This document shows positions 35,914 through 38,701 of a DNA stretch of 64,000 nt, one piece after another. Made by a program: the position numbers and the translations under genes. Source of the stretch: Arenibacter echinorum (lineage in GTDB: Bacteria > Bacteroidota > Bacteroidia > Flavobacteriales > Flavobacteriaceae); the NCBI RefSeq assembly GCF_003259375.1, contig NZ_QLLN01000009.1, positions 1 to 64,000 of the forward strand, given 5' to 3'. The notes beneath the pieces were generated by a model, which saw only the letters and a list, made by a program, of their open reading frames with translations, was not told the origin of the DNA and did not search any database. Within the stretch, counting starts at the first letter, position 1; every line of letters begins with the position of its first letter.

Positions 35914-36579
35914 ATGACGAAAGCGGAAAAAGTAAACTTTGCCATTGAAACTTTACAGACAATATATCCAACCATTCCAGTTCCGTTAGACCACAAAGAC
36001 CCATATACGCTACTTATTGCAGTATTATTGTCCGCACAAAGTACGGATGTCAGGGTCAATCAGATTACCCCTATACTATTTGCCAAGGCAGACAATCCTT
36101 ATGACATGGTAAAAATGACGGCAGATGAAATAAGGGAAATTATAAAACCCGTTGGACTATCCCCAATGAAATCCAAAGGAATTTATGGGCTTTCCAAAAT
36201 CTTAATTGAAAAATATGACGGACAAGTTCCTGAAGAAATGGAACTTTTGGAACAATTTCCGGCCGTAGGTCATAAAACAGCTAGTGTGGTGGTTTCCCAA
36301 GCCTTTGGTATACCAGCTTTTCCCGTGGATACCCACATACATAGGCTTATGTACCGATGGGGGTTTTCCAATGGTAAAAATGTAGTACAAACGGAAAGGG
36401 ATGCGAAAAGATTATTCCCAAAAGAATTATGGAACGATCTTCATTTACAGATAATCTGGTACGGAAGGGAATATTCCCCTGCAAGAGGGTGGAATTTGCA
36501 AAAAGACATAATAACCAAAACAATAGGAAGAAAAAAAGTTTTGGACGCCTACTATAAAACAAAAAATCCCAACTCCTAG
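35914..36579 (+). CDS. nth: Endonuclease III lacking the iron-sulfur cluster loop
   Basis: 221 residues. Helix-hairpin-helix FPAVGHKTASVVVSQAF carries the catalytic Lys (K121), and PVDTHIHRLMYRWGF carries the catalytic Asp (D139). LLIAVLLSAQSTD near the N-terminus is conserved. At the C-terminus, where E. coli Nth has four cysteines holding a [4Fe-4S] cluster, this protein reads WYGREYSPARGWNLQKDIIT with no cysteine at all. It should still excise oxidised pyrimidines and cleave AP sites. Loss of the cluster occurs in some other endonuclease III homologues and may be a lineage trait. Its stop codon lies inside the downstream terminator stem. Confidence 0.93.
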   Translation: MTKAEKVNFAIETLQTIYPTIPVPLDHKDPYTLLIAVLLSAQSTDVRVNQITPILFAKADNPYDMVKMTADEIREIIKPVGLSPMKSKGIYGLSKILIEKYDGQVPEEMELLEQFPAVGHKTASVVVSQAFGIPAFPVDTHIHRLMYRWGFSNGKNVVQTERDAKRLFPKELWNDLHLQIIWYGREYSPARGWNLQKDIITKTIGRKKVLDAYYKTKNPNS

Positions 36580-36591
36580 TTGGGATTTTTT
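36561..36591. terminator. Two-way terminator overlapping the nth stop codon
   Basis: AAAAAATCCCAACT and AGTTGGGATTTTTT form a perfect 14-bp stem with a 3-nt loop. It serves nth on the plus strand (the TAG at 36577-36579 is in the loop and second arm). It also serves the sigma-factor/mini-protein transcript on the minus strand, which ends 4 nt away at 36595. Confidence 0.85.
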
Positions 36592-36594
36592 AGT

Positions 36595-36738
36595 CTAGTT
36601 TAAATTATTTTCGAATTGAATATTACTATATTCAACTATTTGCAAAGATTTGGAATAGCCAATCAAAAACTTGATAGTTTCAGGACTCGCTTTGGCAAGT
36701 TTACACTTGTGTTGATTCTCAGAGTAAATTTTTTCCAT
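36595..36738 (-). CDS. 47-residue mini-protein downstream of ECF sigma factor 1
   Basis: ATG at 36738, stop at 36595. The protein starts MEKIYSENQHKCKLAK and contains IKFLIGYSKSLQIVE before ending NNLN. The gene at 37896-38048 encodes a homologue: both share N-x-KCKL (after about 8-10 residues), I-x-F-L-x-x-YSKSL-x-I, and the last two residues LN plus the same stop codon. Both follow a paralogous sigma gene at 71-72 nt. Two independent copies with conserved protein sequence argue that it is a real gene. There is no membrane helix; one conserved Cys. Function is unknown; a partner or modulator of the sigma factor is the obvious hypothesis. Confidence 0.7.
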   Translation of the reverse strand: MEKIYSENQHKCKLAKASPETIKFLIGYSKSLQIVEYSNIQFENNLN

Positions 36739-36752
36739 AGGATTATAGTATT

Positions 36753-36768
36753 GTTATGTTAAGATAAC
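36753..36768 (-). promoter_or_regulatory. Conserved GTTAT-N6-ATAAC hairpin before mini-protein 1
   Basis: On the minus strand GCGTTAT, six nt, ATAACAATA lies 15 nt before the mini-protein ATG. The same element (36753-36768 here, 38060-38075 there) occurs at the second locus, including flanking AGTnGCG and AATAnTAT, whereas the rest of the intergenic sequence has diverged. It may be a translational hairpin, RNA processing site or operator. Confidence 0.5.
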
Positions 36769-36810
36769 GCTACTAAAATGGAAATATTGTCCGGTTCGTC
36801 CTATGACCTA

Positions 36811-37392
36811 TTAATTCGTTAAAACGATATTATGTTTTTCAATTATTTTTCTAAGGTTTATAAGTGCGTATCTCATTCTTCCCAAGGCCGTATTAATACT
36901 AACCCCTGTATTTTCAGATATTTCCTTAAAGCTCATGTCCCTGTAAATACGCATTAAAAGAACTTCTTTTTGATCGTCCGGTAATTCTTCGATCAATAAG
37001 GTAAGATCAGAATCTATTTGATCCTTGATAAGTTGTTTTTCTACATTAAGTTTATCATCACCAATTACGGAAAAGATATTAAAATCATCATTCCCCTCAA
37101 ACATTGGCATTCTTTTGTTTCTTCTAAAGTGATCAATTACCAAGTTATGGGCTATTCTCATAACCCAAGGCAAAAATTTGCCTTCTTCGCTATAATTTCC
37201 TTTTTTCAAGGTTTTAATCACTTTAATAAAGGTGTCCTGAAAAATGTCCTCTGAAACATCCCGGTCCAATACCTTAGAATAAATAAAGCTACTAATACGT
37301 TGGTTGTGCCTGTTGATCAAAACCTCTAAAGCTTTTTCATTACCGTTAATGTAATCCTTTACTAATACTGAGTCATCTATTTGCAGTTCCAT
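36811..37392 (-). CDS. ECF-type RNA polymerase sigma factor (paralogue 1)
   Basis: 193 residues. Region 2 includes DIFQDTFIKVIKTLKKG and FLPWVMRIAHNLVIDHFRRNKR (about residues 49-95). Region 4 is the helix-turn-helix MSFKEISENTGVSINTALGRMRYAL (about residues 154-180). No anti-sigma gene is adjacent; instead a 47-residue mini-protein follows. By hand count it is about 80% identical to the paralogue at 38120-38701 with no gaps, so the pair arose by tandem duplication. The 5' leader contains a GGGG-N4-CCCC hairpin (37419-37430) absent from the other copy. Target promoters are unknown. Confidence 0.95.
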   Translation of the reverse strand: MELQIDDSVLVKDYINGNEKALEVLINRHNQRISSFIYSKVLDRDVSEDIFQDTFIKVIKTLKKGNYSEEGKFLPWVMRIAHNLVIDHFRRNKRMPMFEGNDDFNIFSVIGDDKLNVEKQLIKDQIDSDLTLLIEELPDDQKEVLLMRIYRDMSFKEISENTGVSINTALGRMRYALINLRKIIEKHNIVLTN

Positions 37393-37895
37393 ACAAAATA
37401 TTGTTTTTGGTTAAACTAGGGGGCCTCCCCTTTCGGTTCGGACTTTTTTTTTATTACTTCTTCTTTTTTGAAGACTTTAAATCTTCATTATTAATTAGTA
37501 ACAGGATAAAAGTATATAAATGGTAAGGTGTGCAAAAAACTATGTTGTAAAACCCCCGTTAATTGATGTCAAATGCCAATTTTCTTATTTTACGCATAAT
37601 AATTGGCCAAAAATGAAGTTGAAACGGCCTAATTGAATTAATGGCAAGACTATTTATTATTATCAGCTGCTGGAAAGATAGAATAACCTATATATTAAGG
37701 AATATAGAAAAACACTGTAAAGTTTATTGTAATGGGCCTGTTAAAGGAAGTCAAGGTTATATACTTAATGGGAAGTGTACTACATCGTAAATTAAAATAA
37801 TGGGAGTTTCACTTTTAGGCTATTGCCTATGTACTTAAGTAACCCAATAAGTCGTTATAGATACGGACGAGCTATTGCAAAACCTTTGTAAGTTC
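37393..37895. other. Spacer between the duplicated sigma modules
   Basis: About 500 bp, AT-rich. It contains the 5' region of sigma gene 1 with the G/C hairpin at 37419-37430 and a run of T on the plus strand. A 49-codon plus-strand frame (37641-37790) has no homology or start signal that I recognise. No clean terminator was seen for the upstream (sigma 2) module. Confidence 0.5.
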
Positions 37896-38048
37896 CTAGT
37901 TTAAGCAATGCTCATCCAATTCATCATTACACTTATCGCTTTTAATGATGTAAAGTGATTTAGAGTAATTCAACAAAAAATCTATCTTGGACCTCCGTGT
38001 AGACATTAGTTTACATTTGTTATTAGTAGTAACGTTGAATTTCCCCAT
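37896..38048 (-). CDS. 50-residue mini-protein downstream of ECF sigma factor 2
   Basis: ATG at 38048, stop TAG at 37896. Begins MGKFNVTTNNKCKLMSTRR, contains IDFLLNYSKSLYIIKSDKC and ends EHCLN. Homologous to the mini-protein at 36595-36738: the KCKL, YSKSL and terminal LN positions match, while the linker and acidic tail differ. It has two additional cysteines near the C-terminus. It begins 71 nt after the stop of sigma gene 2 and is preceded by the conserved hairpin at 38060-38075. Function unknown. Confidence 0.7.
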   Translation of the reverse strand: MGKFNVTTNNKCKLMSTRRSKIDFLLNYSKSLYIIKSDKCNDELDEHCLN

Positions 38049-38059
38049 AATAATATATT

Positions 38060-38075
38060 GTTATTGTCAAATAAC
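38060..38075 (-). promoter_or_regulatory. Conserved GTTAT-N6-ATAAC hairpin before mini-protein 2
   Basis: On the minus strand GCGTTAT, six nt, ATAACAATA lies 12 nt before the mini-protein ATG. The stem residues are identical to those at 36753-36768 while the loop differs, a pattern that suits selection on the structure or on a dimeric protein site. Confidence 0.5.
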
Positions 38076-38119
38076 GCAACTGTTATGAAGAAATTAACTA
38101 AAAGGGGTTGTAAGGCCTA

Positions 38120-38701
38120 TTAATTCGTTAAAATAATGTTGTTCTTTTCTACAATCTTCCGAAGATTGATAAGAGCATAGCGCATTCTGCCCAAGGCAGT
38201 GTTAATACTAACCCCTGTATTTTCAGATATTTCCTTAAAGCTCATGTCCTTATATAGGCGCATTTCCAAAACTTCCATCTGATCTTTTGGCAATTCTTTG
38301 ATAAGTAGGGTAAGATCCTGATCTATCTGATCTTTGATAAGTCGCCTTTCAGCATTTAACTGATCATCGCTAATTATGGAGAATATATTGAAATCATTGT
38401 TGCCTTCAAATCTGGGCATTCGCTTATTCTTCCTAAAATAATCTATTATTAGGTTATGGGATATACGCATTACCCAAGGTAGAAATTTTCCTTCTTCATT
38501 ATAATTGCCCTTCTTTAGGGTTCTTATAACCTTTATAAAGGTATCTTGAAAAATATCTTCTGTAATTTCCCGATCTTGAACTTTGGAATAAATAAAACTG
38601 CTAAGTCGCTGGTTGTGGCGGTCAATTAGTTTTTCAAGGGCTCTTTCGTCCCCGTTCATGTAGTCTTTTACTAATACTGAATCTTCTATTAATAGTTCCA
38701 T
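38120..38701 (-). CDS. ECF-type RNA polymerase sigma factor (paralogue 2)
   Basis: 193 residues. Region 2: DIFQDTFIKVIRTLKKG, FLPWVMRISHNLIIDYFRKNKR. Region 4: MSFKEISENTGVSINTALGRMRYALINLRKI, identical over this stretch to paralogue 1. The differences between the copies lie mainly in the linker and the start of region 2, so both probably see similar -35 elements. Divergent from uvrA; followed by its own mini-protein. Whether the module answers DNA damage because uvrA, nth and bcp are close is only a suggestion from position. Confidence 0.95.
   Translation of the reverse strand: MELLIEDSVLVKDYMNGDERALEKLIDRHNQRLSSFIYSKVQDREITEDIFQDTFIKVIRTLKKGNYNEEGKFLPWVMRISHNLIIDYFRKNKRMPRFEGNNDFNIFSIISDDQLNAERRLIKDQIDQDLTLLIKELPKDQMEVLEMRLYKDMSFKEISENTGVSINTALGRMRYALINLRKIVEKNNIILTN

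Follow-up and report, generated by a model that had tools for sequence, protein, structure and literature searches.

The stretch analysed here, called the window throughout, comprises 64,000 nucleotides (nt) of Arenibacter echinorum (NCBI RefSeq assembly GCF_003259375.1, contig NZ_QLLN01000009.1, positions 1 to 64,000) and carries two copies of a module made of an extracytoplasmic function (ECF) sigma factor gene and a very short gene that we call mini. The genes lie between uvrA and nth on the minus strand, in the order sigma B, mini B, sigma A, mini A (Table 1), with spacers of 72 nt in copy A and 71 nt in copy B between the sigma gene and its mini. Both sigma factors contain the Pfam sigma2 and sigma4 domains above cut-off and consist of these two domains only, as is typical of ECF sigma factors; both domains also match sigma folds. 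A preliminary description of the locus, made from the letters alone, had reported two sigma factors about 80% identical, each followed 71-72 nt downstream by a short gene of 47 or 50 codons whose product is the more diverged, and this was borne out, with 81% identity between the sigma factors and 38% between the minis. Among the motifs it listed as shared, I-x-F-L-x-x-YSKSL-x-I and the terminal LN are common to both minis, whereas N-x-KCKL fits mini B only, mini A having N-x-x-KCKL; the Cys of KCKL is not conserved among 33 diverse minis. No further anti-sigma gene was seen at the locus, where the neighbours are bcp, nth and uvrA.

Table 1. Features of the sigma-mini locus, in positions of the window.
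Feature	Position	Strand	Remarks
ECF sigma factor copy A (sigma A)	36811..37392	-	193 amino acids (aa); sigma2 ~1-99, sigma4 ~118-191; Pfam Sigma70_r2 and r4, fold matches
ECF sigma factor copy B (sigma B)	38120..38701	-	193 aa; Pfam sigma domains
Mini anti-sigma-derived gene copy A (mini A)	36595..36738	-	47 aa, C-terminal LN
Mini anti-sigma-derived gene copy B (mini B)	37896..38048	-	50 aa, C-terminal LN
Promoter-like element ACAATA-N15-CGTTA, perfect	36765..36790	-	sigma A/mini A spacer; basis is conservation
Degenerate element	38071..38097	-	sigma B/mini B spacer; GCGTTATT kept, -35 box 3/6 (TTAATT); by eye
nth, endonuclease III	35914..36579	+	neighbour; in several relatives adjoins an anti-sigma gene that left sigma (by eye)
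Perfect 13-bp inverted repeat with A/T tracts	36561..36591	.	spans the end of nth, just after mini A; probably a two-way terminator; by eye

The small gene is real and conserved. Among 18 Arenibacter genomes, which yielded 18 mini A and 15 mini B sequences, mini A has a pN/pS of 0.178 and mini B one of 0.312, the values in the same set being 0.055 for sigma A and 0.111 for sigma B, which indicates that the mini gene is under purifying selection. A profile built from 33 diverse minis, mini A itself being one of its rows, matches mini A at E 6.4e-21 and, with E at or below 0.01, reaches 92 of the 119 genomes searched, our own among them; the matches in two (G069 and G082; G, C, L and f numbers are our handles for genomes, contigs, loci and families) are weak and have an internal stop. 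A profile search of relatives and a dN/dS check were the means by which the preliminary description had proposed to tell a gene from a chance reading frame; both were run, and they found the gene conserved with pN/pS well below 1. The mini is short and has no database name (a Pfam scan of the 33 minis gave no match), and mini B precedes sigma A by about 500 nt, both being on one strand, so that a chance frame, a leader, an RNA element or another non-coding feature had to be considered. With pN/pS of 0.18-0.31, protein-profile matches across the order at E down to 1e-21, and mini A followed only by the convergent nth, such an origin is extremely improbable, and the chance frame or leader was dropped on the grounds of pN/pS and profile conservation.

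The gene is also coupled to its sigma factor. Sigma A was matched in 105 of the 119 genomes at E 1e-30 or better (own included); 25 of these, our own among them and all Flavobacteriaceae, have two sigma copies and the other 80 a single one. A mini or a full anti-sigma gene is present in at least 95 of the 105 sigma-bearing genomes, five further genomes of one family carrying the full-length form instead (L084, L091, L253, L257, L260). At a loose threshold, a mini or full domain comes next after 264 of 293 sigma copies, the 293 being a redundant set of named and unnamed copies, many from Arenibacter. In the 14 genomes without the sigma gene (no match at E 1e-30; G094 and G098 among them are 83% and 68% complete), 13 have no mini-profile match and the fourteenth is the weak G082 match with its internal stop; this count covers the mini profile only. 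In most of the Flavobacteriales examined, the mini gene is conserved next to the sigma orthologue, and coupling to an ECF sigma gene, which is characteristic of class I anti-sigma domains (ASDI), holds for the mini or full-domain gene.

Tracking the sigma gene outward through the phylum and reading the partner gene at each step suggests where the mini came from. In the most distant relatives, the partner overlaps or abuts sigma and encodes 181-270 aa with an N-terminal domain of about 75 residues (L238-L247, L266, L267) and, by eye, one membrane segment. Class-level relatives (L225, L226, L231, L232, L234, L263) have a soluble partner of 75-83 aa overlapping sigma by 26 nt, some order-level relatives (L084, L087, L091, L250, L253, L257, L260) a soluble partner of 88-90 aa separate from sigma, and the Flavobacteriaceae mostly one of 46-50 aa, with intermediates of 60-70 aa in L088, L096 and L208. 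Profile comparisons connect the long with the membrane forms (Prob 98, E 1.5e-12) and the mini with the long forms (Prob 72, E 4.4e-6), both values being one-pair E-values. The mini hidden Markov model finds the 88-aa form L087 at E 2.6e-9 among 24201 open reading frames, the match covering its C-terminal 40 residues (coordinates of the matching hit in genome G084). An NCBIfam anti-sigma model matches the two membrane forms that were scanned (at E 2.4e-8 and 1.9e-10, below its cut-off) and also 5 of 19 longer sequences. A Pfam scan of seven longer forms gave no relevant match, and PDB sequence searches with the mini and longer-form profiles gave no significant one, the best E for the mini profile being 0.61.

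Structure prediction points in the same direction. AlphaFold places helices at residues 7-14, 20-32 and 34-52 of one 88-aa form and a fourth at 59-86 (mean pLDDT 80, pTM 0.51). When this model was compared with 350,542 PDB chains by Foldseek, ranks 1-15 of 34 were anti-sigma chains (RslA, ChrR, RskA, MucA, RsiW), and in VIA-align such chains occupied rows 1-7 of 18 with Z from 4.3 to 6.8. These scores are individually weak, the best Foldseek E being 0.22 and Z at most 6.8, a range (4.3-6.8) that VIA-align describes as possibly just a common arrangement, whereas their agreement is not weak. The predicted bundle of helices 1-3 joined to helix 4 fits an ASDI. Class I anti-sigma factors such as RsiW, RseA/MucA, RskA, RslA and ChrR are likewise encoded beside an ECF sigma gene, and the 88-aa homologue shares their fold of three-helix bundle, linker and helix 4 in its prediction; the window minis differ from them, with 47-50 aa in total and neither helices 1-3 nor membrane anchor nor sensor domain.

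What the window minis share with the longer forms is limited to the opening residues and the region of helix 4; they correspond to the last helix and its tail. The parts kept are a start M-x-K-x-Y/F-S/T, the fourth helix P..ETI.FLLNYSKSL and a short tail ending in Asn. This terminal residue, encoded in the window at 36598-36600 (mini A) and 37899-37901 (mini B), occurs in 213 of 223 distinct sequences filed as mini, or in 213 of 215 once eight relabelled sequences are removed, and also closes the 88-90 aa forms of Flavobacteriales. The relabelling was done for a sigma tree: among 235 sequences filed as mini, L229, L233 and L262 were reassigned as full domain and L209, L210, L212, L213 and L265 as intermediate, and L208, L235, L261 and L264 were relabelled as well. 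Rooted on the membrane forms, the tree has full domains at three places around the minis, and reduction is therefore a simpler reading than growth. It is a quick tree with several long branches in which 'mini' needs 8 changes, and repeated independent reduction is possible. Descent of the mini from a full-size class I anti-sigma factor is well supported; the three-helix bundle with its sigma4 contacts and the membrane anchor appear to have been lost along the way.

The sigma-mini spacers carry the promoter-like element ACAATA-N15-CGTT. Its layout is that of ECF promoters, which combine a -35 box, a gap of 15-16 nt and a CGTT -10 box. CGTT is found in 233 of 239 spacers (12.7% in shuffles), and a box agreeing with ACAATA in at least 5 of 6 positions lies 12-19 nt before it in 182 of the 239, at exactly 15 nt in 164 (1.7% in shuffles). 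With the gap set to 15-16 nt and shuffled means as controls, the element is present in 175 of 237 distinct sigma-mini spacers (control 5.6), upstream of sigma in 9 of 15 overlapping-operon regions (0.17), and upstream of relocated anti-sigma genes in 11 of 18 cases (0.24). Upstream of sigma in other arrangements it was counted in 2 of 234 (0.9), and upstream of sigma genes without a neighbouring partner in 0 of 28 (0.4). The overlapping-operon test used 15 rows with an automatically set sigma start, two of which (L157, L174) come from Flavobacteriaceae and have a start called at a short spacer, and thus took in 13 of the 23 true overlapping or abutting operons. Because of the counts for spacers, overlapping operons and relocated partners, we read the element as tracking the anti-sigma gene and not the sigma gene; it stayed with the mini or anti-sigma gene through most rearrangements.

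The rearrangements themselves were read in families f18 and f19, where 15 class-level genomes have no partner downstream of the sigma gene. A full domain of 71-80 aa is encoded elsewhere in 11 of them (E < 1e-8) and was not found in the other four (G125, G134, G154, G381). The element precedes all seven f18 orphans and none of the four f19 orphans. Six of the 11 relocated domains (L268, L270, L272, L275, L276, L278) adjoin nth, the gene that borders the sigma-mini pair in the window, as do the relocated minis L293-L295 (both by eye); L271, L273, L274 and L277 have other neighbours, and the neighbour of L269 was not resolved. Two minis of family f7 (L291 in G117, L292 in G090) lie on other contigs than sigma, beside a TerC-like gene (by eye), and their upstream element agrees in only 4/6 positions.

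The element may also link the sigma factor to type IX secretion (T9SS). Exact matches in four genomes (G000, G031, G038, G049; own-genome site G000:C4:35650-35675) fall inside ruvA, just upstream of sprA. With 15 nt spacing, the element is found in 30 of 30 ruvA genes read (L343-L372, ruvA 3' end) and in eight further loci (L403-L410), which brings the total to 38 of 38 loci of sigma-bearing Flavobacteriaceae. Its Ala codon is GCG in all 30 genes, compared with 14.8% elsewhere in them, and a nearby control Ala codon is GCA in 18, GCT in 12 and never GCG. The codon preceding AAT has C in its third position in all 30, though it encodes N, S, G or D. The Leu codon is likewise TTA throughout (30/30; 32.6% elsewhere) and of little weight, since a nearby control Leu is TTA in 28 of 30. 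Fifteen of the 30 genomes are Arenibacter, so that these counts are not independent and amount to 19 distinct 27-mers. The codon usage indicates that the element is frozen at synonymous sites inside ruvA.

In the other genomes, 26 ruvA loci were found, 20 of them readable. Eight sigma-bearing Flavobacteriales have the element (G033, G052, G072, G073, G078, G081, G084, G085); it is missing in 4 of the 12 readable sigma-bearing order- or family-level genomes (G077, G083, G101, G109), and the class-level G215 is also without it. Among sigma-less genomes, it is missing in 6 of 7 readable ones (G040, G079, G082, G092, G098, G103), the one carrier being the 83% complete G094. A sprA match follows ruvA in 19 of the 20 readable loci, the exception being G040, the only sigma-less family member with ruvA read, where the element may have been lost with the ruvA-sprA gene order. 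The sequence could instead be bound by some other regulator or serve a different ECF sigma factor as its promoter, and the many sigma-like genes of the own genome (29 matches), together with the four sigma-bearing genomes that lack the ruvA copy, would suit such a reading. The ECF promoter layout, the position before sigma itself in the outgroup operons (9/15) and the absence from 6 of the 7 readable sigma-less genomes, G040 with its altered gene order among them, speak against it, and we judge it rather unlikely. Recognition of the element by this ECF sigma factor is probable, and by way of the ruvA-sprA copy the sigma switch apparently controls the type IX secretion machine as well.

A precedent for such control comes from Porphyromonas gingivalis, in which SigP (PGN_0274) is described as an ECF sigma factor needed for T9SS genes including ruvA-sov, sov being the sprA counterpart (PMC4800418, PMC10951265). 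According to PMC4800418, less ruvA-sov is transcribed when SigP is lost, and rSigP binds to DNA upstream of ruvA; F. johnsoniae is reported to have one SigP homologue (PMC10951265). Judging by the published descriptions, the ECF sigma factor studied here is probably a counterpart of Porphyromonas SigP. No anti-sigma gene for SigP is named among the candidates listed in the available text of PMC7712824. The SM6 promoter class of Flavobacterium psychrophilum, described as having a CGT -10 box upstream of T9SS genes and of one ECF/anti-sigma pair, is similar by its description, and its cognate sigma factor is left open in the available text of PMC9723704.

From these observations, a mechanism can be proposed. 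The ECF sigma factor would read promoters of the ACAATA-N15/16-CGTT type, so that active sigma would lead to production of the mini-protein from the sigma factor's own type of promoter and to its build-up. In class I anti-sigma factors, helix 4 covers sigma2 regions 2.1/2.2, the contact with RNA polymerase (PMC7406223, available text), and by analogy helix 4 of the mini would cover the same regions and prevent sigma from joining RNA polymerase. This would close a short negative feedback loop in which no membrane sensor takes part. It is the retention of the sigma2-covering helix together with the own-type promoter that leads us to regard the mini as a feedback brake. We put the probability of this explanation as a whole, a helix-4-only anti-sigma factor exerting negative feedback on a SigP-like sigma factor, at roughly two in three. 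Towards a more specific version we lean only slightly: a working anti-sigma factor would consist of one sigma2-binding helix whose C-terminal Asn is fixed, the anchor and then the bundle would have been lost stepwise, and the product, made from its own promoter, would brake the T9SS sigma factor in Flavobacteriales. The small cytosolic modulator of sigma suggested in the preliminary description is upheld in so far as the protein is real, conserved, devoid of a membrane segment and tied to sigma; its direct action on sigma is what we infer from the known anti-sigma factors.

Several results weigh against the feedback brake, besides the low fold scores and the four sigma-bearing genomes lacking the ruvA element. 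An AlphaFold model of sigma A, spacer and mini A fused together reached a pTM of 0.47 and no readable docking, and gave the mini part a helix at 237-249 plus a hairpin instead of one long helix. Mean-field coupling over 237 distinct pairs (Neff 92) ranked sigma 26/mini 25 first (score 2.29, next 1.63), and this pair was not significant in a low-power phylogenetic test (7 independent pairs, supported branches). Mini B was lost in 2 of 17 Arenibacter loci read (L024 and L029, in genomes G008 and G012) with sigma B kept, no partner was detected for sigma in G021, G033, G052, G076, G089, G113, G125, G134, G154 and G381, and the partner match in G158 is weak. The -35 box of mini B is weak too, and the exact element is not enriched genome-wide, with 6 matches against 8 reversed controls in the own genome and 32 against 52 across five genomes. 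In the window, a scan allowing one mismatch gave 1 match with 1.43 expected, which is not rare. A relaxed form gave 13 matches against 5 controls, the mini A and ruvA-sprA sites included, and a pattern with one extra N, which serves as an offset control only, 16 against 10. Finally, rSigP failed to bind immediately upstream of sov, and ACAATA-N15-CGTT is not the motif published for SigP (PMC4800418).

Descent from an anti-sigma factor would also be compatible with an opposite role, in which the mini activates or stabilises sigma or delivers it, for example to RNA polymerase or a PorX-like partner. The mini has lost the part with the sigma4 contacts, its near-invariant C-terminal Asn (213/223) hints at a separate function for the tail, and RskA is reported both to activate and to inhibit SigK (PMC7509140, available text). 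The helix that is kept, however, is the one with which known anti-sigma domains cover the surface of sigma2 that binds RNA polymerase (PMC7406223), and sigma and the ruvA element are both retained in G021, G033 and G052, where no mini was found, which makes an essential activator unlikely; we consider an activating role doubtful. Even less likely is that the mini left sigma regulation altogether, binds another partner and merely remains in the sigma regulon. The mini gene does lie away from sigma in several families, and its binding to sigma is argued by analogy; against this stand the retention of the helix by which known anti-sigma factors touch sigma2 and the co-occurrence of the two genes, with a mini or full gene in at least 95 of 105 sigma-bearing genomes and no mini-profile match in 13 of 14 sigma-less ones.

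The feedback brake has a near parallel in CnrY, a minimal class II anti-sigma factor of two helices, the last of which binds sigma2 like helix 4 (PMC7406223, available text). CnrY keeps its first helix on sigma4, whereas the mini is predicted to have one helix (at least four residues) and a short hairpin in the low-pTM model. EcfO-Reo of Bacteroides is also an ECF sigma/anti-sigma pair of Bacteroidota; Reo is reported to span from the cytoplasm to the cell surface (PMC13114119), unlike the mini. Kinship with EcfO-Reo was dropped, Reo being membrane-spanning and the window partners 47-50 aa long. A survey located ASDI next to no more than 6% of the ECF sigma genes of Bacteroidetes and raised the question of what controls the rest (PMC7406223). 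For one widespread sigma group, the answer would be that an anti-sigma factor is present and too short for domain searches. If the mini does work in this way, it would be, to our knowledge, the smallest member of the class I anti-sigma family, and it would offer a natural test of which portion of such a factor suffices. A promoter-like element inside a neighbouring gene would further link the sigma factor to type IX secretion, making the control of flavobacterial T9SS directly testable. A literature search covering sources other than subscription papers and supplements returned no report of the mini gene or the ruvA-embedded element.

Some additional observations may guide further work. The two Arenibacter loci that have sigma B without mini B constitute a natural experiment on the role of the mini. 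One Arenibacter genome contains a third mini gene near a contig end (L302, G005:C44:260-400), which perhaps follows a further sigma copy cut off by that end. In P. gingivalis, PGN_0273, a hypothetical protein gene numbered next to sigP, is reported to rise together with sigP in a ppGpp-less mutant (PMC6994654, available text).

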